Shown: positions 22,188 to 31,000 of the stretch, one piece after another
Numbering within the stretch: position 1 is the first letter of the stretch
Layout: each line of letters opens with the position of its first letter
Assembly: GCA_039640495.1 (NCBI GenBank)
Contig: CP046864.1
Coordinates: 2,901,001 to 2,965,000 of the forward strand
Length of the DNA: 64,000 bases
Origin: Rhodobacteraceae bacterium IMCC1335
Lineage (GTDB): Bacteria > Pseudomonadota > Alphaproteobacteria > Rhodobacterales > Rhodobacteraceae
Reading direction: 5' to 3'
Program-made: the position numbers and the translations under genes
Notes under the pieces: model-generated
What the model saw: only the letters and a program-made list of their open reading frames with translations
Database searches by the model: none
What the model was told of the DNA's origin: nothing

Positions 22188-22366
22188 AGAATGGCACGTA
22201 TTACCGCTTATTTGATTTGTCGATCGATAATTTTTAAAATTATCGGCCCTTTCAGATTGAAGACAATATCCGCGTTGCTCAGACTGACTTGGATATTGCT
22301 ATGAGAACGAAAAAAACAAGCTCACCAACTCACTACGCCAGTGCCTATTATCGCTTATGTAAGTGA

Positions 22367-22516
22367 CATCAACTGGCGGCTATCCGATCAATCTCACTGA
22401 ACCAAACGACCTCTGATCTGCTCGCGATCAATGGATCGGCTCAGGTTGAGGGTGAGGCTAGAGCGGCCTTAAGGGGTGTTGGTGTTGAGAGGCTGATCGC
22501 TCAGCCCGCTCACTAG
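22367..22516 (+). pseudogene. 3' end of unidentified phage-type gene X, copy A
   Basis: An open stretch ending ...D-L-L-A-I-N-G-S-A-Q-V-E-G then A-R-A-A-L-R-G-V-G-V-E-R-L-I-A-Q-P-A-H-stop. The same last ten residues recur in four other places in the next 9 kb (copies B-E), so this is the longest of five copies of the 3' end of one gene. No start codon remains. Its stop lies 11 bases from the stop of the opposing small gene at 22528. The family is not recognised. Confidence 0.6.
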
Positions 22517-22527
22517 CTTAGTGCCAA

Positions 22528-22791
22528 TTATTCAGTCATCTCTGTCATCATGTAGGCTTTGTAAACAGCGCCATTATCTTTGTCCCACTGTAATTCCGTA
22601 GGATCAGACATGAAGGCACCCATTGCTTCCATGTCGGTACAATTCATTGCACACATAACCTCGTTATTACCCAGATCAGAAAGGCGATATTCACTAACCC
22701 ACTTGCCCATGTCTCCAGCCATCTGGCCTTCAATTCGGGCTTTCAAAACATCAAAACCAGCTTCAATAGTACCGTGAAAAAATACGTTCAT
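22528..22791 (-). CDS. Small hypothetical protein, possibly dimeric alpha/beta-barrel-like
   Basis: An 87-residue protein beginning M-N-V-F-F-H-G-T-I and containing an alternating pattern (helix around residues 14-28, strands V-M-C-A-M-N-C-T-D and V-Y-K-A-Y-M-M-T-E-M) compatible with a small ferredoxin-like/alpha-beta-barrel fold. It has no signal peptide and is rich in methionine (11). A GGACACAAA leader gives only a weak ribosome site. It stands tail-to-tail with gene X copy A, and X copy B lies behind its start. Function unknown. Confidence 0.6.
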   Translation of the reverse strand: MNVFFHGTIEAGFDVLKARIEGQMAGDMGKWVSEYRLSDLGNNEVMCAMNCTDMEAMGAFMSDPTELQWDKDNGAVYKAYMMTEMTE

Positions 22792-22812
22792 TTTGTGTCC
22801 TTTATTTACAAA

Positions 22813-22851
22813 GCAGGGATAGAGGGGCTGATTGCTCAGCCCGCTTATTAA
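22813..22851 (+). pseudogene. 3' end of gene X, copy B
   Basis: Reads A-G-I-E-G-L-I-A-Q-P-A-Y-stop. On the opposite strand the same bases form the hairpin GGGCTGA-GCAA-TCAGCCC, which would follow the gene at 22853-23224 in its transcript. The X stop is one base from that gene's stop. Confidence 0.6.
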
Positions 22852-22852
22852 T

Positions 22853-23224
22853 TTAAACGGCTTTCATAGTGTGGGCCATTTTTTGACTATCATCATAGAT
22901 CCAAAACTCTTTAATCTTTCCTGCCTCCACCTTATGAAAGTGTCCGAATTTGGCTTCCATACCATCGGCAGTGGCATCAAGTTGTGTCGCTACTTGATCG
23001 CCTTCAGAAATCATATTGGCTACTGTTACAGAAAAGTTGTCAAAATGAGTTGGTATCATAGCCAGCACGCTCATGAACTCATTTATCCCGTTATATGTTC
23101 CAGAAAATTTGTGCATACCATTCATAACAACTTTGACGTCTTTGTGAAATAATCCCACAAATGTCTCCATATCGCCTGTTGAGAAACAGTCGTATCCTTT
23201 TTGTACAACTTCTTTAGGTGTCAT
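22853..23224 (-). CDS. NTF2-like / SnoaL-like protein
   Basis: A 123-residue protein with the hallmark SnoaL/NTF2-like sequence: an N-terminal helix (E-V-V-Q-K-G-Y-D-C-F-S-T-G-D-M-E-T-F), then L-F-H-K-D-V-K-V-V-M-N-G, an F-x-G-x-Y-x-G-I-x-E-F segment, and the strands V-A-T-Q-L-D-A-T-A and G-K-I-K-E-F-W-I-Y-D-D. This cone-shaped fold binds small ligands or catalyses isomerase and hydratase reactions; the substrate cannot be read. TAGGAGGTAAGT gives a strong ribosome site. It belongs to the group of small genes abutting gene X remnants. Confidence 0.8.
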   Translation of the reverse strand: MTPKEVVQKGYDCFSTGDMETFVGLFHKDVKVVMNGMHKFSGTYNGINEFMSVLAMIPTHFDNFSVTVANMISEGDQVATQLDATADGMEAKFGHFHKVEAGKIKEFWIYDDSQKMAHTMKAV

Positions 23225-23422
23225 TTACTTACCTCCTACTAAACGAGCCCTCACTCCAGCGACGTTGCAAGAAAGTAAATAGTTACGCAACGAACTTTAC
23301 ATCTGAATGAGAGGTGGCGAAAAGTTTTGCTCGTTTATTAAGCATTATTTCTTAATTCCAGAGGTCGCGCTGCTCCTGTCTGTAAGTTTTTACTGAAATA
23401 CCTGATTTAAAATCACAGGTTT

Positions 23423-23441
23423 TGATGACGCTTCGTCAGGC
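23423..23441. terminator. Small hairpin between convergent and divergent units
   Basis: TGACG-CTT-CGTCA hairpin just beyond the 3' end of the MFS gene, on the side where its transcript ends. No clear T-run. Confidence 0.3.
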
Positions 23442-23461
23442 CGTAACAAAAAACGCATGGT

Positions 23462-24655
23462 TTAATTATGTTTGGTCAACTCTTTCTGAGAAAGTGAAAT
23501 AAGCGCACCCAAGATCAAAATTATAAATGACGCGAACAGCCCCATGCCTATATCATCAAAATAGTCACCGATTAACCCAGCAATATAGGGGCCTAGCGTT
23601 TGAGAAATAGCGAAGATAACAGTAAAAACACTTATTGAATAAGCCCACATTTCTTGGGGTAAGTTTCTTCTAGTGAAATTTGTTATTGCACCTGGTGCCA
23701 TAAAAACTGACGAACCAAATATAACTGCTGAAAATAACAAAATAGAAAAGGATGGAGACAGTAAAGGCGTTACTGAACCAATGGAAATACTGATCAAAAT
23801 CATGGATAATGGAATTCCATTTCCAAATCTTGCAAAAATAGATCGCCATATAAATGGCGAAATGCATATGAAAAATCCAAGCACCAACCAAATAGCGGTT
23901 ATCATCTCAGCGTTTATGGATTGAGCGGTCATCCACGCTGACAAAAACGTAAGATAAATAATGTATCCAAAACCAAAGCAAGCATAGCCAGATAATTCGG
24001 GAAGCATCTTCAAAAATGGAAATTCAGTAACGCTTGATTTTATAGGTTTTGAATATTCTATTTGTAGTGCTGACCAAATACTCAGTGGTGTAAATATGAT
24101 GCTAAATAATCCAATAATTATCCAACAAAGTGGCCAAGAACTATTGCCAAATTTATAAATTATCATAGGAATAAATGCTCCAGACAGAATAATTCCCAAC
24201 CCCCCGCCGGTGCCAAATAAAATGGCTATAGAGAAGGCATTTAACTTCTCATTTTTTTTAAAGAGCCCAGATGCAAGCGCTCCGGCTGTGGAAAATGAAA
24301 CTGCGCCAAATGTACCGGCAAAAAAACGAAGTGCGTATTGCGCTTCTAAATTGGGGAAAACCCCGGTCAGAAATAAAACACCAGATGTGGTTATGAGACC
24401 AAACACAAAGAGCCTCACTGAGGTAAATCTCTGCACAAGAAACAAAGTTGAGATTGCACCTAAAATATAGCCCAGCGCATTTACTGTATTCAACCAACCA
24501 GCTTGAGCATAATTCCAATCCAATTGTGCTTTCATCGCTGGAAGCATCAATCCATATGCAAATCGAGCAAAGCCATTAGTTACTGTAATACCGAGAAGCA
24601 AACCTAATAAAATAAACCATTGTTTGGTGTATTTTATCTCCACTAGCTTCTCCAA
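23462..24655 (-). CDS. MFS transporter, YbfB/YjiJ-like
   Basis: A 397-residue major facilitator with twelve predicted helices. The first-helix segment G-I-T-V-T-N-G-F-A-R-F-A-Y-G-L-M-L-P-A-M and the following W-L-N-T-V-N-A-L-G-Y-I-L-G-A are the signature of the YbfB/YjiJ family. The helix 4-5 F-A-G-T-F-G-A-V-S-F-S-T-A-G segment is also conserved. Substrates of this family are largely unknown. Codon usage is AT-rich compared with the core genes to the left. It is the only large intact transporter within the small-gene region and may be one of its accessory genes. Confidence 0.88.
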   Translation of the reverse strand: MEKLVEIKYTKQWFILLGLLLGITVTNGFARFAYGLMLPAMKAQLDWNYAQAGWLNTVNALGYILGAISTLFLVQRFTSVRLFVFGLITTSGVLFLTGVFPNLEAQYALRFFAGTFGAVSFSTAGALASGLFKKNEKLNAFSIAILFGTGGGLGIILSGAFIPMIIYKFGNSSWPLCWIIIGLFSIIFTPLSIWSALQIEYSKPIKSSVTEFPFLKMLPELSGYACFGFGYIIYLTFLSAWMTAQSINAEMITAIWLVLGFFICISPFIWRSIFARFGNGIPLSMILISISIGSVTPLLSPSFSILLFSAVIFGSSVFMAPGAITNFTRRNLPQEMWAYSISVFTVIFAISQTLGPYIAGLIGDYFDDIGMGLFASFIILILGALISLSQKELTKHN

Positions 24656-24808
24656 TTAAATATGCTTCAAAGAACTGATACGTGAAGTTGGCTTTTAATA
24701 CGAGAGATTGCAATTATTATCGAAATTCAGTACCTTTTCTTCAGGCATTTAATCACCAACTTGTGCGCCTTGGCATCCCGCCTAAAGTACTAAAGCGGAG
24801 GACTAGAC

Positions 24809-25437
24809 ATGAACCGTCGTTTATTCCTTATTGGCACTGGCTCAATTGGCACTGGCTCAATCCTTTCAACGGCATTCGTAGATAAGGCAAACTGGTTTTT
24901 AAGAAACAAAAAATCGGTTGTCCCTTTCTTTGAAAATAGTGAGCCGGTGCAAAAGCTGTATTTTGTCAAAGAGGCAGAAGATTGTTACGATATTGAGCTA
25001 GGCACCCCTGAATATGGATTTCCTGAGTTAACCTACAGAGATTGGTTAGCTACTTATGAGGACTTCGAGCTACCAAAGGGCAAGTTCATTAATCCCAGGA
25101 ATTTAGAAAGACTATGGGAGGACTATGGGAGGACTATGGAATGGAACCAGGCGAATTAGACCTGGTTGCTGCCATGGAATATTACCATGACCGCTGGGCG
25201 GCAATCGACAGCCTATTTGCGCGCGCTCATGAGTATTTGAGTAACATCAACTTATTCGGAAAAGATAATGAAAAAGGTCTAAAAATAGGTAATCTAGATT
25301 TTGTAGCGCCCGGCGGTCCAGGTTATTCTGACAATTATGGCGTGTTTTCCGAAGACCCAATAACGGCCAGCTTGCTTCAGGCGCGCCTAATTGAGTTAGG
25401 GCATAACACGTCGGTGGAGATCGTTGACCGATCGTGA
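24809..25437 (+). pseudogene. Unrecognised protein disrupted by an 11-base duplication
   Basis: The first frame (24809-25159) starts M-N-R-R-L-F-L-I-G-T-G-S-I, resembling a Tat-like signal, and its reading is lost at a tandem repeat of GAGGACTATGG (about 25118-25139). Removing one repeat unit joins it to the second frame, giving L-W-E-D-Y-G-M-E-P-G-E-L-D and a protein of about 205 residues ending at 25437. The N-terminus also contains two direct copies of a 15-base unit (A-T-T-G-G-C-A-C-T-G-G-C-T-C-A, about 24830-24859) encoding I-G-T-G-S. Neither half matches a family I know. Probably a recent pseudogene. Confidence 0.6.
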
Positions 25438-25443
25438 GCCTGG

Positions 25444-25480
25444 GTCGACGCTGGTTTATTTCGCTAAGTAATTCTTTCAT
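25444..25480 (-). pseudogene. 5' end of a holin (3TM type), copy 1
   Basis: Starting at a minus-strand ATG (25480) the sequence reads M-K-E-L-L-S-E-I-N-Q. The first bases and the upstream segment (TAATTCTTTCATTTTGG, then AGCCTTTG) match the start of the better-preserved holin remnant at 27409. It lies head-to-head with the small gene at 25528. Confidence 0.5.
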
Positions 25481-25527
25481 TTTGGGAGCCTTTGGTTACG
25501 GTTTAGAAAACTAAAAAGGAGATGCAA

Positions 25528-25851
25528 ATGTATAGCTGGCAAAATATGCGAGACATTTATAAAGCCGAAAAATTTGATCTTATTGAGTTTAAACGTCACT
25601 TTCACGAAGATTTTATGTTTATCCGAGAAACAAGCTTGGTTGATCGCGATGAATTTTGTGCGGAAATTGATCAGCTGATGGCGGAAGGCAAAAACAATAT
25701 TCCCTTTGATGATATGGAACTAATCCATGAAAATGACGATGTGACGGAGCTTAGATGGGTGGATGGAAACGAGCGGATAGTGCGCATTAATTTAAAAAAG
25801 GACGGGTTAATTTGGCGATCGATCGTTAAAAGAACGCCGATAAATAACTAA
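25528..25851 (+). CDS. NTF2-like small protein, paralogue 1
   Basis: A 107-residue protein of NTF2-like appearance: an N-terminal helix, then F-H-E-D-F-M-F-I-R-E near residue 25, L-I-H-E-N-D-D-V-T-E-L-R-W-V-D-G and the terminal strand N-L-K-K-D-G-L-I-W-R. Two other genes in the region (25869 and 30556) share the same order of motifs, H-x-D-Y/F-x-F, H-E-N/E-D-N and K-K-D-G-L-I-W. The ATG at 25528 has AAGGA seven bases upstream, better than the ATG at 25522. It is followed 17 bases later by paralogue 2, so they are one transcript. Enzymatic or binding role unknown. Confidence 0.7.
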   Translation: MYSWQNMRDIYKAEKFDLIEFKRHFHEDFMFIRETSLVDRDEFCAEIDQLMAEGKNNIPFDDMELIHENDDVTELRWVDGNERIVRINLKKDGLIWRSIVKRTPINN

Positions 25852-25868
25852 GAAAGGTTGAAATAAAA

Positions 25869-26186
25869 ATGGCTTCTTTTGAAAGAGCGCAGAAGATTTT
25901 TAATAACTGGGACAAAGAAGCTTTTCGTGCAGCTCATCATGAAGACTACATGTTTATCAGGGAATTTGAGATGGTCACTTTGGAGGATCATATCGAAAGC
26001 GTCGATGAAGTTATGCGTAATGGTTACGATGTACACAAAAGATGGACGCTGATGCATGAAAACGAATATGTAGAGGAAGTCCGTTGGGAAGAGGGCGACG
26101 AAATCGTCACCCACGTTTCTTTAAAAAAAGACGGGCTGTTGTGGCGAGGCTTTGTCAACCGTGTGAAAAAACCAGATCCGACCTGA
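25869..26186 (+). CDS. NTF2-like small protein, paralogue 2
   Basis: A 105-residue paralogue of the preceding gene. Shared motifs: H-H-E-D-Y-M-F-I-R-E-F near residue 22, L-M-H-E-N-E-Y-V-E-E-V-R-W near 60 and S-L-K-K-D-G-L-L-W-R near 88. The conservation of His-Glu/Asp pairs inside a cone-like fold hints at a ligand pocket, but no family member of known function is recognised. Its stop codon (26184-26186) directly touches the minus-strand stop of a holin remnant (26187-26189). Confidence 0.7.
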   Translation: MASFERAQKIFNNWDKEAFRAAHHEDYMFIREFEMVTLEDHIESVDEVMRNGYDVHKRWTLMHENEYVEEVRWEEGDEIVTHVSLKKDGLLWRGFVNRVKKPDPT

Positions 26187-26222
26187 TCATTTCTCATGCC
26201 CTAGATAAGGGTAAAAGTATCC
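26187..26222 (-). pseudogene. 3' end of the holin, copy 1
   Basis: On the minus strand the last codons read L-G-H-E-K-stop, as in the two other holin remnants; before them V-T-D-T-F-T-L matches V-T-G-A-M-T-G-T-F-A-V with a frame break. With the fragment at 25444-25480 it brackets the two NTF2-like genes. Confidence 0.45.
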
Positions 26223-26390
26223 GTAACGGTTGAGTTCAGCATAGTGGATTGGAGGCTAGAGCTAAATGTGCTTTAGTTTAAACTAGCCCGCATTATTCGA
26301 TGGCTTCATTCTTTTGTTTTGTATTATCAGAGGCTGGGGTGGATGAGCTTTCACGCCATATAAAGCTACTCATATAAAAGGAGTTCGGAC

Positions 26391-26705
26391 ATGAGCATTG
26401 CTAACGTCAACATGTTTGAGTTTGAAAATGAAGAGGCATTACAAACTTTTGCTAAGTGGTATGACGGCGATGGTGCAGATGACTATATGAAATATGCGGA
26501 GTGCGAAATCATACTTATGATCAAAACCAGCCCAACATCGTGCTTGACAGTGGCTAGTTACCCAAATGATGCAGCTAGACAAAAAGCAGTAGCATTAAGA
26601 GAAGGTCGGCATAGAGACGCCGTAGCTAACTTCCTTAAAATAGAACATACTCTTGCTCTGGAGGGCGAAGTTACCGCCAAAAGACTAAAAGAGATAATCA
26701 TCTAA
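26391..26705 (+). CDS. Small alpha/beta protein, 'TSPTS' paralogue 1
   Basis: A 104-residue protein with AAGGAG before the ATG. It begins M-S-I-A-N-V-N-M-F-E-F-E-N-E and contains I-I-L-M-I-K-T-S-P-T-S-C-L-T-V-A-S-Y-P-N-D, followed by a charged helix. The gene at 28002 has the same arrangement (I-N-M-I-E-F-D-N-E; A-I-R-T-S-P-T-S-A-M-T-I-S-V-Y-P-N-E), so the two are paralogues. The strand-helix-strand pattern suggests a ferredoxin-like dimeric barrel (monooxygenase-type fold). No function is known to me. Confidence 0.65.
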   Translation: MSIANVNMFEFENEEALQTFAKWYDGDGADDYMKYAECEIILMIKTSPTSCLTVASYPNDAARQKAVALREGRHRDAVANFLKIEHTLALEGEVTAKRLKEIII

Positions 26706-26825
26706 ATAGAGCCTTTCAAATTAAACAAGCAGTATCTTAAGCTTTACCGTTTATAGGCCTTAATAAAATCCTCCTACCCTTAACCAAGATTGAACCTGCT
26801 TACTAAGTGGGGGCTTTAATTGGTC

Positions 26826-27065
26826 TTACATGACATAATATACAAAGAATAAGTTTGGCAGAATGAATGCCGTGCATAAAGCAAAGGTTCTGGCTAAATT
26901 GCCTAATCTAATAAAACCACGGTTCGTTCTATTATCTATACCAAAAAGACATAAGCCCACTGCAGCGCCTCTTGCTTCATTTTTTATTTTTCGTTTTTCG
27001 ATGCTTGCTAGTCCCTCCAAATAACGAGCGTTCAGTTGCGATTTCGCATCATCATGTAACGGCAC
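26826..27065 (-). CDS. Small protein with C-terminal membrane helix, uncertain
   Basis: A 79-codon frame starting with GTG. The first 40 residues are charged, the last 25 (T-F-A-L-C-T-A-F-I-L-P-N-L-F-F-V-Y) hydrophobic. It lies on the same strand as the phage remnants and could be a leftover of a phage gene rather than a functional gene. No ribosome site is convincing. Confidence 0.3.
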   Translation of the reverse strand: MPLHDDAKSQLNARYLEGLASIEKRKIKNEARGAAVGLCLFGIDNRTNRGFIRLGNLARTFALCTAFILPNLFFVYYVM

Positions 27066-27186
27066 TTATAGACCTCAAAATTTTCATTCCTTAATCTTAG
27101 GTAGATGAGGCGTGGTTTGTTGAACTCAAATGGTCATTTAGACGCATCTTCTGAAAAAACGCTAAGCACCTACTGACAGGGAGAAC

Positions 27187-27409
27187 CTATTTCTCATGCC
27201 CCAATCAAACGGCAAAGGCACCCGTCATAATCTCAGTCAGAACAGTGGCGTGAGGTGTCCTCGATCTGATCCACGGCCAGCTCCTAAGCGTGACGGTCGG
27301 CCATTGTGCTTATTTCATGAGCAAGTCGCGCAGCTTCATCTTTGTCTAATACCACTTTATCGATAATATTGGTCACTGGGCCTATAATGCCGCTAAGTAA
27401 TTCTTTCAT
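27187..27409 (-). pseudogene. Degenerate holin of the GTA 3TM type, copy 2
   Basis: Starts M-K-E-L-L-S-G-I-I-G-P-V-T-N-I-I-D-K-V-V and continues D-K-D-E-A-A-R-L-A-H-E-I-S-T-M, the beginning of the 'holin of 3TMs, gene transfer release' family, before a stop. After an internal deletion the remainder reads T-P-H-A-T-V-L-T-E-I-M-T-G-A-F-A-V and ends in L-G-H-E-K-stop. The membrane-spanning middle is gone. Start lies head-to-head with the small gene at 27465, 55 bases away. Confidence 0.65.
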
Positions 27410-27464
27410 TTTGGTAGCCTTTGTTTAGGTTTTTTTGTTAGAAATTTTCAAGAGGAAGAACAAA

Positions 27465-27749
27465 ATGCCAAGCATGTTAATCACAGTAAAAATATCAAAA
27501 GGCTTTGAAACTTGGACCAAGATGGCAAAGTCTTTAGAGAAAGAAGCGGGAGAAGAAGGTGCAAAAGTTATTTGGGCTGCAGCAAATCCTGACGAAACGT
27601 CGATTTATGTAATGATGGATGTTCCAAACCCTGAGTTCATGCAGACATTTGGGCTTAGAGAAGATGTCAAAAAAGCCCGTGAAGAAGCAGGCGCTGATGT
27701 CTCAACGACCACAGTTATTACGCCAATCGGTGATTACTGGTTGGGTTAA
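27465..27749 (+). CDS. Small hypothetical protein of the accessory region
   Basis: A 94-residue protein from the ATG at 27465, which follows AAGAGGAAG; a TTG-type extension to 27435 is unlikely. Begins M-P-S-M-L-I-T-V-K-I-S-K-G-F-E-T-W, has a helix (M-A-K-S-L-E-K-E-A-G-E-E-G) and two short strands (V-I-W-A-A-A-N-P-D-E and S-I-Y-V-M-M-D-V-P-N-P-E), again a ferredoxin-like or antibiotic-biosynthesis-monooxygenase-like layout. Its stop is three bases from the stop of an opposing holin remnant. Function unknown. Confidence 0.65.
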   Translation: MPSMLITVKISKGFETWTKMAKSLEKEAGEEGAKVIWAAANPDETSIYVMMDVPNPEFMQTFGLREDVKKAREEAGADVSTTTVITPIGDYWLG

Positions 27750-27752
27750 CGC

Positions 27753-27970
27753 CTATTTCTCATGCCCCAGCCAAACGGCAAATGTACCTGTCATGGCACC
27801 CGTCACAGTCGCAATCAGAGCAGTGGCGTGAGGTGTCATGGCCTCTGGCGGCAGCGTCATAAACCAATTTAAGACGTCCAGATATGCGTAGCACATCACC
27901 GCCATCATAACGCGTGGCAGTGGCTTCCAGCCAGTATACGTTCCATTGCTATCGTCATTTGATACTTCTA
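27753..27970 (-). pseudogene. C-terminal part of the holin (GTA 3TM type), copy 3
   Basis: The minus strand reads Y-T-G-W-K-P-L-P-R-V-M-M-A-V-M-C-Y-A-Y-L-D-V-L-N-W-F then L-P-P-E-A-M-T-P-H-A-T-A-L-I-A-T-V-T-G and ends L-G-H-E-K-stop. The G-W-K/R-P start of the membrane part and the terminal helix match 3TM holins of the gene-transfer-agent type. The N-terminal half is missing. Confidence 0.65.
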
Positions 27971-28001
27971 AGAATTTGAAAAATTAGAAAAGGAAAAGCA
28001 G

Positions 28002-28310
28002 ATGTCAGTAACCAGAATAAATATGATCGAGTTTGATAACGAAACGGTCGCCGACACCCGTGCAGCTGAATATCAAAAAAATGCGAGAAAACAGTTCCCA
28101 GAGGCAGATTTACTTATCGCTATTAGAACAAGCCCCACTTCAGCTATGACTATCTCAGTATACCCTAATGAAGAAACGGCGGAACGGGCTTTGGAGATGC
28201 GGGATAAAAGGATTGATAGCGAAAGAGATATTTCGGGTTGGCATATGGAAGGTGAAATATCCCTTTTTGACCTCAAACAAGACCATTGCTTAGATGGGCT
28301 ATCCGGGTAA
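28002..28310 (+). CDS. Small alpha/beta protein, 'TSPTS' paralogue 2
   Basis: A 102-residue paralogue of the gene at 26391, preceded by AAAGGAAAAG. Shared blocks are I-N-M-I-E-F-D-N-E-T at the start and A-I-R-T-S-P-T-S-A-M-T-I-S-V-Y-P-N-E near residue 45; the C-terminal third differs. Its stop is five bases from the stop of an opposing phage-gene remnant. The conserved T-S-P-T-S-x-(L/M)-T turn between two strands may form the ligand or dimer contact. Confidence 0.65.
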   Translation: MSVTRINMIEFDNETVADTRAAEYQKNARKQFPEADLLIAIRTSPTSAMTISVYPNEETAERALEMRDKRIDSERDISGWHMEGEISLFDLKQDHCLDGLSG

Positions 28311-28315
28311 CCAAA

Positions 28316-28444
28316 TCATTTTAAACCTCGCAAAAATTCTGTGAAAAAGTACAGCAAGGCAGAACCGCCAATGCTAAGAGCAGTAATCAAGCCCCATGAA
28401 ATATAACGGATGTTTGCCGCTATTTGGCGCCGCCTCGCCTCGGC
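28316..28444 (-). pseudogene. 3' end of a phage-type membrane protein, Y
   Basis: The minus strand reads R-R-R-Q-I-A-A-N-I-R-Y-I-S-W-G then T-A-L-S-I-G-G-S-A-L-L-Y-F-F-T-E-F-L and a stop, that is a charged segment and one membrane helix. Its 5' part is replaced by the terminase fragment at 28445. Not assigned to a family. Confidence 0.45.
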
Positions 28445-28555
28445 TTACTTTTTGCGCTGGCACTTCATCATCTTGATCGGCGAGCCAACCTGAGCGCCCT
28501 CTGGGATCAGGCAATAATGCTCAATAAATGCGCATATCTTTTGGCCGCGTGTCAT
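28445..28555 (-). pseudogene. Terminase large subunit, N-terminal fragment, copy 1
   Basis: Starting at the minus-strand ATG at 28555 the sequence gives 36 residues: M-T-R-G-Q-K-I-C-A-F-I-E-H-Y-C then I-P-E-G-A-Q-V-G-S-P-I-K-M and C-Q-R-K-K, followed by a stop. This is the N-terminus typical of phage terminase large subunits (I-E-x-Y-C-x-x-P-E-G ahead of the F-Q-R-x-F-I helix). The ATPase and nuclease parts are missing. It lies head-to-head with the small gene at 28639. Confidence 0.65.
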
Positions 28556-28638
28556 GATGATATTATCTTTCGTGGCGTAATCATTGACAGAAACGGCTCT
28601 ATGTTTTTCCCTTAAAGTACATCAATTGGGAGGTGAAG

Positions 28639-28902
28639 ATGCTTTTTAAACTTTCGTATTCAATACCAGTAGAATTGCTCAAAGAATGTCAGGAGCGGTT
28701 TAAAAGCGGTGAAGAAAAAACTGATGGGCTTAAGGTAATTGGCAGATGGCATGAAGTGGGTAAAAACCAAGGCTTCATGCTCGCTGAAGCAGACGACATT
28801 ATGGCCGTTGGGACATTCACAAATCAATGGAGCGATTTGTGTAATATGGAGGTTGTTCCCGTAATGACTGACGAACAAGTTGGTCAAATTTTAATGGCAT
28901 AA
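28639..28902 (+). CDS. DUF3303-like small protein
   Basis: An 87-residue protein. The ATG at 28639 has GGGAGG at proper distance; the GTG at 28633 overlaps it. The sequence F-K-L-S-Y-S-I-P near the start, R-F-K-S-G-E-E-K-T-D-G-L-K-V-I-G-R-W-H, then G-F-M-L-A-E-A-D-D and the W-S-D-L-C-N-M-E-V-V-P-V-M segment follow the DUF3303 pattern, a small dimeric alpha/beta-barrel family of unknown function. Its stop lies nine bases from gene X copy C, and its upstream region (about 83 bases to the terminase fragment) is repeated before the gene at 30111. Confidence 0.78.
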   Translation: MLFKLSYSIPVELLKECQERFKSGEEKTDGLKVIGRWHEVGKNQGFMLAEADDIMAVGTFTNQWSDLCNMEVVPVMTDEQVGQILMA

Positions 28903-28911
28903 CGCATAAAA

Positions 28912-28945
28912 CTAATGAGCGGGCTGAGCAATCAGCCCCTCAACA
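28912..28945 (-). pseudogene. 3' end of gene X, copy C
   Basis: Minus strand: C-V-E-G-L-I-A-Q-P-A-H-stop. On the plus strand it forms the hairpin GGGCTGA-GCAA-TCAGCCC after the DUF3303 gene. Confidence 0.6.
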
Positions 28946-29001
28946 CAAAAAAATTCTCTGGTTTTTAATTGTATACACACTTTGTGGCAATAAGGCCGTA
29001 T

Positions 29002-29856
29002 TCATGTTGCTTCAGATACGTCATAGGCGGCTCTGATCAATTCTGCAGGATCTCGTTCAGCCAAACCCATTTTTTCAGAAAAAGCTCGCTGTCTGTCAAA
29101 CCCTTCCAACATAGGTGACCTCATATCAAAGTGATGTAAAATTTTTCTAAACACATCATTATCTTTAGCAGTTCCACTATTAGTAAAGCCAACAGTAGCA
29201 TCATCACCCATTATTTTAGGTATTCTATCCCTAACTACAGGCAGTCCAGCTGGACCCGTGCACAGAATATCAAGTGCCGTTTTAAGTGGTAGTCCGGCTT
29301 TTTTTGCGAGTGGTATCAATTCAGTCAGACCGCTTACATAGATTTGGACCATGCTATTATTAATAGTTTTCATAACCATACCGGTCCCGAGAGGCCCTAC
29401 ATGAAAAATACGCTGAGAGATTGGGGACAAGTGGCCAGCAGCCCGCTCAGCAGAAAAGTCATCACCTCCAATAAAAATACCGCAGGTACCATTTTCTACT
29501 AGCTCTGGGCCACCAGAGATTGGCGCATCGACGAAAATGGCGCCTTTGTCGTATAATTGATCAGCCCGCTCGATTAAGATTTGAGGCGAAACGGTGCTAG
29601 TATCGATAATTTGAATACCTTTAAGGTCAAATCTGAGCAACGCATCTAATATATTTGTCACTGCGGCATCGTCGAATAGGCTTAGGATTAAAATATCATT
29701 TTTCTCGACTAAGGTTTCTAAATTCTCAAAAGTATTTATGCCTTCGGGCGTACGTCCACTTCTGGTCCAACCAGATACATTAATCCCTTTAAAACGCATT
29801 CTACGAGCAATTGCACAGCCCATCTTTCCCAGCCCAATAACTCCAATTTTAACCAT
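29002..29856 (-). CDS. 3-hydroxyisobutyrate dehydrogenase-family NAD(P) oxidoreductase
   Basis: A 284-residue beta-hydroxyacid dehydrogenase. The Rossmann motif I-G-V-I-G-L-G-K-M-G is at residues 3-12 and the family signature A-P-I-S-G-G-P-E-L-V-E-N-G-T near 120-133. The G-T-G-M-V-M-K-T-I-N-N-S segment contains the catalytic lysine (near 168 in the family). The substrate (3-hydroxyisobutyrate, tartronate semialdehyde, 4-hydroxybutyrate or similar) cannot be chosen. AAGGAGGC precedes the ATG. It lies between two blocks of phage remnants and may be an accessory gene. Confidence 0.9.
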   Translation of the reverse strand: MVKIGVIGLGKMGCAIARRMRFKGINVSGWTRSGRTPEGINTFENLETLVEKNDILILSLFDDAAVTNILDALLRFDLKGIQIIDTSTVSPQILIERADQLYDKGAIFVDAPISGGPELVENGTCGIFIGGDDFSAERAAGHLSPISQRIFHVGPLGTGMVMKTINNSMVQIYVSGLTELIPLAKKAGLPLKTALDILCTGPAGLPVVRDRIPKIMGDDATVGFTNSGTAKDNDVFRKILHHFDMRSPMLEGFDRQRAFSEKMGLAERDPAELIRAAYDVSEAT

Positions 29857-29984
29857 TTACGAAGCCTCCTTTTTAATCTTTGTTGCATTCTAATACATAA
29901 ATATTTTTATCGAAAACTATATAAAAACTCTGTTAGCTTAATTTTCGCAATTATGTCTATTGAAGCGCGTGAAAAGATGCAGAG

Positions 29985-30025
29985 GTAAGCCTCAATTAAT
30001 GCGCATATCTTTTGGCGCGTGTCAT
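29985..30025 (-). pseudogene. Terminase large subunit, N-terminal fragment, copy 2
   Basis: From the minus-strand ATG at 30025 the reading M-T-R matches copy 1, then one base is missing; in the shifted frame the sequence of K-I-C-A-x-I-E is still recognisable at DNA level (GATATGCGCATTAATTGAG). The upstream 86 bases are also similar to those upstream of copy 1. Confidence 0.5.
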
Positions 30026-30110
30026 TTCGATATTATTTTTCGTGGCGTAACATTTGACAGAAATGGATTTATGTAATCCGCTTTGAATATTTAAAAATCA
30101 GAAGAGAAAA

Positions 30111-30494
30111 ATGTCAGATGTAATGAATACGTCCGCAGACCGTGACCGCCGTCAGAGATTTGGTGCTCAACGAGGCCGTGATCTTTATTGGGGCATCACT
30201 TTAGGATTAGTGGTAAACGCAGCAACCATGTTTATGATTACTCTTGGTGTAGGCGTTCCAAAATTGGCTATTACGGCAGCAATTGTGGGTAGCTTTATTT
30301 TTGTCTGCATAAATTCCTTTGACTGCATGGACGACTTTAAAGCGAACGCCAATGATATGGGGGAAGAAGAGCGCGCCACCCACCTCGGAAAAAAGCTTTT
30401 AGTTGCACCATGGGGAATGTTTAAAACATTAGTCTTTTTAATATTTGGTGCCATTGGAATATGCCAGCTTCAAGACATGTGGAAAATATTTTAA
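30111..30494 (+). CDS. Small membrane protein of the accessory region
   Basis: A 127-residue protein with a charged N-terminus (residues 1-24, arginine-rich), two membrane helices (about 27-47 and 50-66), a charged loop (D-D-F-K-A-N-A-N-D-M-G-E-E-E-R-A) and a third helix (about 101-120). AGAAGAGAA precedes the ATG. No family recognised. Its stop codon directly touches the stop of gene X copy D on the other strand. Confidence 0.65.
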   Translation: MSDVMNTSADRDRRQRFGAQRGRDLYWGITLGLVVNAATMFMITLGVGVPKLAITAAIVGSFIFVCINSFDCMDDFKANANDMGEEERATHLGKKLLVAPWGMFKTLVFLIFGAIGICQLQDMWKIF

Positions 30495-30525
30495 TTAATG
30501 AGCGGGCTGAGCGATTAACCCATAA
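30495..30525 (-). pseudogene. 3' end of gene X, copy D
   Basis: Minus strand: D-Y-G-L-I-A-Q-P-A-H-stop. The codon for the first leucine is TTA instead of CTG, which breaks the hairpin arm while keeping the peptide. Confidence 0.55.
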
Positions 30526-30555
30526 TCAGAGATCAGCTTTTACAAGGAGACAGCG

Positions 30556-30879
30556 ATGTTATTTGAAAAAATGCATAGCGCATGGAAAGCACGCGATCTT
30601 GAAGGATGGAAATCTTGCCATCATTCGGATTACACATTCGTGAGCCATGCTATGGGCAAAACGATGACTAGGGACGACATGTCTGACGAAATGATGTTGG
30701 GCATGATGCAGACCATAAAACCTGAAAATCAACGTTGTATATATGAAGACAATAACATTTTAGTCGAACACAGTGTTACAACTTTTGCTTCTGGTGACAA
30801 AGAGGCGGTGATGGCAGTCCATATCAAAAAAGATGGTTTGATTTGGAAGACCGAAACTGGCGCAACACCACTTAAATAA
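30556..30879 (+). CDS. NTF2-like small protein, paralogue 3
   Basis: A 107-residue relative of the pair at 25528 and 25869. Motifs in the same order: W-K-S-C-H-H-S-D-Y-T-F-V-S near residue 19, I-Y-E-D-N-N-I-L-V-E-H-S near 65, and H-I-K-K-D-G-L-I-W-K near 92. AAGGAG lies eight bases before the ATG. The gene is followed after one base by gene X copy E on the opposite strand. The separate location, five kilobases from the other two, with different phage flanks, indicates independent insertion or duplication by block. Confidence 0.7.
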   Translation: MLFEKMHSAWKARDLEGWKSCHHSDYTFVSHAMGKTMTRDDMSDEMMLGMMQTIKPENQRCIYEDNNILVEHSVTTFASGDKEAVMAVHIKKDGLIWKTETGATPLK

Positions 30880-30880
30880 G

Positions 30881-31000
30881 CTAATGAACGGGCTGAGAAA
30901 TCAGTCCCTCAATACCAAAATTCTTTAAAGCCGCTCCGGCCTCACCCCAACGTTTACCGGTCCATTAATCGCGCGCGGATCAGAAGCCGCTTAGTATAAC
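30881..31000 (-). pseudogene. 3' end of gene X, copy E
   Basis: Minus strand ends G-I-E-G-L-I-S-Q-P-V-H-stop. Further upstream A-I-N-G is visible and then a shortened, frame-broken version of the R-A-A-L-R-G segment of copy A. The plus-strand hairpin has a GAAA loop. Confidence 0.55.

Follow-up and report, generated by a model that had tools for sequence, protein, structure and literature searches.

Opposite-strand small genes at the junctions of decayed phage genes in Rhodobacteraceae bacterium IMCC1335

Temperate phages carry morons, extra open reading frames (ORFs) that stand between phage genes adjacent in relatives and that differ from them in GC content; the passages of PMC2920897 on these genes also describe hotspots holding different morons and the persistence of morons near phage remnants. 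In T4-like phages, conserved promoter and stem-loop flanks (PeSL cassettes) are said, in the part of PMC4503421 devoted to them, to shuffle genes between related phages. Grounded or cryptic prophages figure in the relevant passages of PMC6379469 as deletion zones that hold useful genes, and the satellite AH14b, in the section of PMC4936722 that treats it, has no terminase or lysis gene. Here, we describe a stretch of 64,000 nucleotides (the window; G000:C1:2901001-2965000) in the one-contig, 3.74-Mb genome of Rhodobacteraceae bacterium IMCC1335 (G000), in which small open genes lie against scraps of phage genes. A preliminary description of the window had compared the small genes with prophage morons, and relatives of these genes do stand at the same phage-gene slots in viral contigs. 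We think it probable that they are morons, that recombination in shared flanks exchanged them, and that they persisted when three or more related phage-like elements decayed at this site.

Positions of the slots

The small genes, here called cargo, are found at the joints between the terminase genes terS and terL, between terL and the portal gene, between two genes named Y and Z, and between Z and a holin-type gene, on the strand opposite to that of the phage genes. In the preliminary description, the phage genes meeting the small-gene stops had been named “gene X” and “holin.” The former is terS, whereas the latter could not be kept as one gene: the stop side belongs to the small membrane protein Z, and the start side belongs to the holin-type gene.

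For terS, terL, Y, and Z together, 83 gene ends were recognised, and 62 of these have an opposite-strand ORF ending within 12 nt. The corresponding share is 6.8% for random positions and 19.9% for the stops of other long ORFs. GC content is 41.6% in 33 cargo genes and 51.5% in 11 scaffold genes. It might be supposed that small host genes came to lie beside phage scraps by coincidence in a deletion-prone region, where erosion of the phage genes is heavy and ORFs often arise by chance (the 19.9% of long-ORF stops). However, the excess over both controls, the GC difference, and the recurrence of the same cargo at the same slots elsewhere speak against this view, which we regard as extremely improbable and as refuted by the shared slots.

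The small genes had been thought to fill gaps between phage genes, and the undisturbed joints bear this out. We fetched 55 further loci through Y; seven had no Z match, leaving 48, in 44 of which Y and Z directly adjoin (Z start offset, 287 nt in 43 loci and 290 nt in one). The four exceptions are the contigs of loci L064, L067, L074, and L075, each with cargo. In seven of nine contigs inspected, the Y-Z and Z-holin joints are both 4-nt ATGA overlaps, and terL and the portal gene adjoin in locus L073 and in genome G002. Because those genes adjoin when cargo is absent, the cargo sits exactly at the end of one phage gene and the start of the next. As for the proposed search for the small genes at the same slots elsewhere, relatives were found for 28002 (window genes are named by their first position) in the Y slot of L074, for 27465 in the Z slot of L064, and for 22528 at terS tails in L064 and L062, the match in L064 (6967-7230) being 63% identical. 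Two opposite-strand small genes, one of the 28002 family, occupy such gaps in the capsid-bearing fragment L071.

In the window itself, ten small open genes and the phage-gene scraps lie within positions 22253-30984, each scrap being opposite in strand to the small gene next to it. Stop-to-stop distances reported earlier are correct: they amount to 0 to 11 bases for eight small genes, among them 28002 (end at 28310), which faces the Y remnant (from 28316). All four phage-gene starts said to face small genes were recovered, two of the holin type (25480 and 27409) and two of terL (28555 and 30025). The features are as follows.

22253..22516, + strand: terS remnant, block A, C-terminal part (tblastn, terS residues 67-156, 56%; one internal TGA)
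22528..22791, - strand: cargo gene, protein of 87 aa beginning MNVFFHG (open; stop 11 nt from the terS stop; no Pfam match)
22819..22851, + strand: second terS 3' tail with hairpin
22853..23224, - strand: cargo gene, SnoaL-like, of the NTF2 fold family (PF12680, 5.7e-14; stop 1 nt from the tail stop)
23225..23307, - strand: worn leader and terL start, block A (weak, 7 mismatches; terL start at 23307, + strand)
25440..25480, - strand: remnant of a holin-type gene start (repeat D4)
25522..25851, + strand: cargo gene, family of 25869, stacked without a tail of its own
25869..26186, + strand: cargo gene, NTF2-like by predicted structure (stop 0 nt from the Z tail stop)
26187..26210, - strand: worn Z tail behind cargo 25869 (5 mismatches)
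26391..26705, + strand: small gene related to 28002 (31%); no adjoining phage end recognised
27187..27264, - strand: second Z tail, into which the holin-type start 27260..27409 runs
27260..27409, - strand: holin-type gene start (tblastn, 83%, residues 3-50)
27465..27749, + strand: cargo gene, Z slot (96% to L064:12798-13082, same slot)
27753..27932, - strand: Z remnant (90% over residues 10-68)
28002..28310, + strand: cargo gene, Y slot, ferredoxin-like by predicted structure (81% to L074:12180-12488, same slot)
28316..28468, - strand: Y remnant (86% over residues 47-96)
28451..28555, - strand: terL start, block C (89% over residues 1-35)
28556..28638, + strand: leader, terS-terL slot, block C (TTGACA at 28584-28589)
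28639..28902, + strand: cargo gene, DUF3303 (PF11746, 4e-22; residues 55-87 identical in viral contig L013)
28912..28950, - strand: terS 3' tail with hairpin, block C
29986..30025, - strand: terL start (ATG), block B (repeats D2 and D10)
30026..30110, + strand: leader, block B (repeat D2, matching its copy at 28540 with 78%; TTGACA box, 30054-30059)
30111..30494, + strand: cargo gene, membrane-protein-like (no Pfam match)
30495..30530, - strand: worn terS 3' tail
30556..30879, + strand: cargo gene, SnoaL_2/DUF4440 (stop 1 nt from the terS stop)
30881..30984, - strand: terS 3' end, block B (tblastn, residues 123-156, two pieces, 67%)

Block A (+ strand) runs from terS (22253-22516) through cargo 22528, a tail, and cargo 22853 to the worn terL start at 23307. 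Block B (- strand) runs likewise from terS (30984-30881) through cargo 30556, a tail, and cargo 30111 to the terL start at 30025. Block C (- strand) comprises a terS tail (28950-28912), cargo 28639, the terL start at 28555, Y, cargo 28002, Z, cargo 27465, and the holin-type start at 27409, which runs into a second Z tail; beyond it follow the worn Z tail, cargo 25869 and 25522, and the further holin-type start at 25480. With at least three terS-terL slots, the window appears to hold at least three related elements or copies, as had been suggested from its repeated slots. Two other genes lie among these parts: a whole gene of the 3-hydroxyisobutyrate dehydrogenase type (NAD_binding_2; 29002-29856) on the phage strand between two slot remnants and a YbfB-type MFS transporter gene (23462-24655) between block A and the remaining array. 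A scan for tRNA genes, as marks of tRNA-linked integration, found none in the window and four in 3 of the 27 sources scanned (L053, L055, and L121).

Leaders and tails

Identity of the leaders was measured between slot members with unrelated cargo and compared with that of shuffled sequences. It is 0.78 over 36 pairs in the holin slot (three unrelated cargo groups, 13 genes; shuffled, 0.40), 0.64 over 15 pairs in the Z slot (four groups, 7 genes; shuffled, 0.44), and 0.59 over 181 pairs in the terL slot (nine groups, 22 genes; shuffled, 0.43). Leaders are thus shared at three slot types, and in the terL slot only 11 pairs exceed every shuffle because three leader types, distinguished by eye, are present. 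Of the 27 terL starts examined, 13 have a TTGACA box some 34 nt away, before otherwise unrelated cargo. Separately, a terS-terL-slot cargo of 55 to 58 aa with a signal-peptide-like start (L053, L056, L075, and L068) has a leader type of its own, unlike the TTGACA leader.

The tails, for their part, are repeated. Where ORFs are stacked, each has its own copy of the slot's tail, be it from terS (L064, with three; L062, L067, L059, and the window), from terL (L076), or from Z (L063 and L074); as an exception, the paralogues 25522 and 25869 are stacked with a single Z tail. Since the repeated tail differs by slot (terS, terL, or Z), a single recombination site common to all slots was rejected. An origin of the ORF-plus-tail units from RNA copies was also considered. 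Among 25 terS tails that are orphan or secondary, 159 of 175 hairpin pairs are preserved; in 8 intact genes, the figure is 53 of 56. The core is far better kept than the bases upstream, in part because the secondary tails begin there.

We propose that at least three related elements, temperate and phage-like, left this region behind and that the junctions between their genes served as slots for morons. Each slot would be built from three parts: the leader, found where the downstream phage gene starts; the ORF or ORFs on the opposite strand, with a short 5' region; and the tail, made of the last 24 to 60 bases of the upstream phage gene. With TTGACA in its usual leader and a tail hairpin that directly follows the cargo stop, the terS-terL slot would resemble a ready promoter and 3' end. 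ORFs would be replaced or stacked by recombination in the shared flanks, and because exchange would occur there, the cargo would end flush with the phage stop and the phage genes would remain unharmed. After integration, the phage genes would decay by internal deletion, while the host would keep the cargo, which may be expressed in the resident state.

Plain moron accretion would instead mean a single event of illegitimate recombination per gene, at any place where the insertion was harmless; the leaders would be leftover phage sequence, and the tails would have arisen by unequal exchange among related phages or by deletions between tandem copies. Such a history would account for the varying left ends of secondary tails (about 24 to 60 nt) and for the tight, cargo-free junctions of an intact relative in G002, and frequent deletions are evident in the fusion of a holin start with a Z tail and in condensed terL genes (described below). 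It would, however, require many independent insertions at the same spot to supply the nine cargo groups of the terL slot, and likewise the three of the holin slot, with leaders similar down to the ribosome-binding site. As unrelated cargo share leaders and tails, replacement in place fits the exact spacing better than one-off insertions do, and we consider accretion conceivable but doubtful.

A stronger claim would be that the junctions are standing docking sites, expression slots that the phage family maintains with a leader and 3' tail formed by the ends of its packaging and lysis genes, at which small ORFs, as ORF-plus-tail units, are captured, swapped, and stacked by a directed process and not by rare accidents. 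We hold this to be unlikely. If it were true, the phage would be a general capture vehicle for small genes, integron-like in effect, and hosts would be left with domesticated cargo arrays once the phage dies.

Carriers, cargo, and decay

Viral contigs contain complete or almost complete counterparts of the scraps, namely terS, terL, Y, Z, and the holin-type gene. Of 295 genomes from the family, six (with this one among them) have a match to terS (156 aa); phage records have none. TerL matches phrog_9 (6.2e-59), and the named phages closest to it in the records reach 51% identity (Rhizobium phage 16-3). Relatives of Y at less than 60% identity occur in 17 phage records, 16 of them named Roseobacter phages, and Z, a membrane-type protein of 68 aa, weakly matches phrog_10198 (function unknown). 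The labels holin and endolysin are putative and reflect our reading of the sequences. The gene order is AlpA-like, RepA-like, HNH, terS, terL, portal, Y, Z, holin-type, and endolysin (L064, L066, L067, L074, and L075, not all genes being whole in each; for L064, 16.8 kb of a 24.1-kb contig was covered). An integrase gene lies towards one end in L064, L067, and L075; AlpA, RepA-like, and integrase matches occur together in L064 and L075, and subsets of them occur in other carriers. G000 (3.7 Mb) has 41 phage-integrase domain matches, one of them beside an array (L048) and none typed as IntI, although no search was aimed at integron integrases; some of the 41 possibly mark integrated elements.

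G002 has, within a prophage, a terL that is 80% identical; portal, protease, capsid-type, and tail-type genes stand close together there, without such cargo. This same-genus prophage (G002:C1:3117131-3142147; L114 and L115) is apparently open and also has terS and a gene of the DNA methyltransferase type. L073 comprises terL, portal, protease, and a capsid start, without cargo, and the 4.3-kb fragment L071 has the same four (terL, 97% identical), its terL, portal, and protease genes being open, with cargo in the gaps: a relative of 28002 between terL and portal and a second small gene in the portal-protease gap, its stop 7 nt from that of the portal gene. The latter (L071, 2730-3155) encodes 142 aa with a lipoprotein-like start on the opposite strand; its portal-protease gap is a fifth kind of slot.

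The carriers without capsid genes (L063, L064, L067, and L074) could be satellites that borrow capsids and tails, from a family with its own terminase and portal, and the window could be made of decayed satellites. These four share a common joint from the protease start to a late gene, where capsid and tail genes would stand; their portal genes are open (dS, 0.08 to 0.22; ratio of nonsynonymous to synonymous substitutions [dN/dS], 0 to 0.11); AlpA-like and RepA-like genes occur in the family; and the capsid and tail proteins of the G002 prophage have no match in L063, L064, L066, L067, L074, or L075. However, L071 combines cargo gaps with a protease gene and a capsid start, so that the possession of cargo slots does not single out elements without capsids. 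Furthermore, the 353 nt after the portal gene differ by 0 to 4%, while portal dS is 0.08 to 0.22, which points to recombination of the portal gene rather than to long constraint in a satellite. Frameshifts interrupt terL in L067, L074, and L075, and no helper phage was identified. Weakened by L071 and by these signs of recombination, the satellite explanation is a minor rival and, in our judgment, quite improbable.

The exchange of morons through shared flanks also agrees with the contrast, pointed out earlier, between wrecked phage genes and small genes under selection. Of eight cargo pairs analysed by the Nei-Gojobori method, seven have a dN/dS of 0.07 to 0.25 and one yielded no dS, and purifying selection thus acts on the tested pairs; among the ten window genes, three are covered, with values of 0.16 (28002), 0.21 (27465), and 0.20 to 0.25 (22528; 0.25 with its match in L064). 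The phage genes of the window survive only as ends or short stretches. At several sites in three genomes, terL is condensed to about residues 1-47 and 441-504, apparently, by eye, with the same joint in L046, L059, L053/L056, and L050; it is condensed differently in L053 at 9005 and in the window. The copies with the common joint probably share an ancestor, and they may themselves have spread or descend from one copy. They are located as follows.

L046, 18346-18639: condensed terL
L059, 10558-10863: condensed terL
L053, 5468-5774: condensed terL
L056, 12451-12651: condensed terL
L050, 7611-7887: condensed terL

A Pfam scan of 40 cargo proteins (E 0.01) found 13 families: four of the proteins match SnoaL_2, two match SnoaL, and two match DUF4440, while ten further families, including DUF3303, DUF1330, CMD, and GYD, have one member each. 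The structure predicted for the 25869 family is an NTF2-like fold (pLDDT, 93.7), with NTF2- and SnoaL-like Foldseek matches, and that for the 28002 family is ferredoxin-like (pLDDT, 80.3), with matches to dimeric ferredoxin-like and monooxygenase-like proteins; a sequence search of solved structures with five single cargo proteins and one cargo alignment gave no match at E 0.01. Both folds bind small molecules in many families. Judging from these predicted folds, the cargo may be small ligand-binding or enzyme-like proteins, and our guess is that they detoxify or handle metabolites. A profile of the 25869 family collects 291 proteins in a large database, and a search with 28002 gave 31. One terL-slot cargo protein has no match among 50,697 phage records, and a search of viral contigs with a terL-slot cargo protein gave eight loci, all in contigs already known.

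Relatives confined to settings without phage genes had been named as a finding that would count against morons. As a rule, this is not what is seen: the 25869 protein matches 3 of 41 genomes, all of this genus, and of its seven places in G000, five are at slots described here or stacked in one. The other two (G000:C1:2369860 and 3626035; L051 and L052) may represent either host ancestors or fully eroded slots.

Several results weigh against the proposed exchange of morons in shared flanks. (i) The two places just named have no recognisable adjoining phage remnant, and the dN/dS values for the window stand for three of its ten genes. (ii) The portal slot (10 genes) shows no overall leader similarity (0.44 over 21 pairs; shuffled, 0.48). 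(iii) The terL leader of L064 has TTGACG in place of TTGACA, two other terL leader types lack the box, no −10 element is recognisable behind TTGACA in terL leaders, and a promoter scan of the window gave 22 sites against 20.0 expected from shuffles. (iv) The terS tail alone folds strongly, the Y, Z, and terL tails showing no strong folding; a terminator hairpin common to all tails was therefore rejected.

Comparison with known systems

Our analysis supports the moron interpretation and adds an anatomy to it, that of slots with shared flanks and a changing ORF. Leader, replaceable ORF, and tail give a concrete picture of how passenger genes may be fitted into a phage genome without harm, as well as of what stays behind after the phage dies. 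Repeated 3' ends of terS, terL, and Z beside small opposite-strand ORFs form a sequence signature that could find domesticated phage cargo where the phage itself is hardly recognisable, and they draw attention to little-studied small protein families in marine Rhodobacterales-type bacteria. A search of titles and abstract starts in the open-licence literature found no paper on this arrangement, which cannot show that none exists.

Integron cassettes are small promoterless ORFs that all point the same way, and behind each of them, on the 3' side, a partly palindromic sequence recurs. The ORFs described here are likewise each followed by a repeated 3' sequence; unlike in integrons, this sequence differs by slot (terS, terL, and Z ends), and there is no common site. 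Compared with PeSL cassettes as presented in the relevant part of PMC4503421, the slots here have as their 3' element the end of the coding sequence of a gene for packaging or lysis, their ORF runs antisense to the genes on either side, and the carriers are temperate, integrated elements rather than T4-like phages. Slots with shared flanks are absent from the passages of PMC6379469 that describe grounded prophages. With phage-inducible chromosomal islands and other satellites, as far as the section in PMC4936722 describes them, our elements share an integrase, AlpA-like and replication genes, and cargo. Unlike AH14b in that section, they have both terminase subunits, portal, holin-type, and endolysin genes, and since the cargo carrier L071 keeps capsid and protease genes, this is not a lineage without virion genes of its own. 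The closest likeness is to the morons in the passages cited from PMC2920897: the cargo lies between genes that adjoin in relatives, differs in GC content, occupies hotspots in which different genes are found, and has phage remnants beside it. It departs from them in that a gap forms a slot, whose leader is shared and whose tail repeats the end of a phage gene, in that the cargo is on the opposite strand in all junction slots studied, and in that small fold families fill several slots per element. The slot anatomy is thus a variant of the known moron arrangement, the new part being the shared flanks with an exchangeable ORF.

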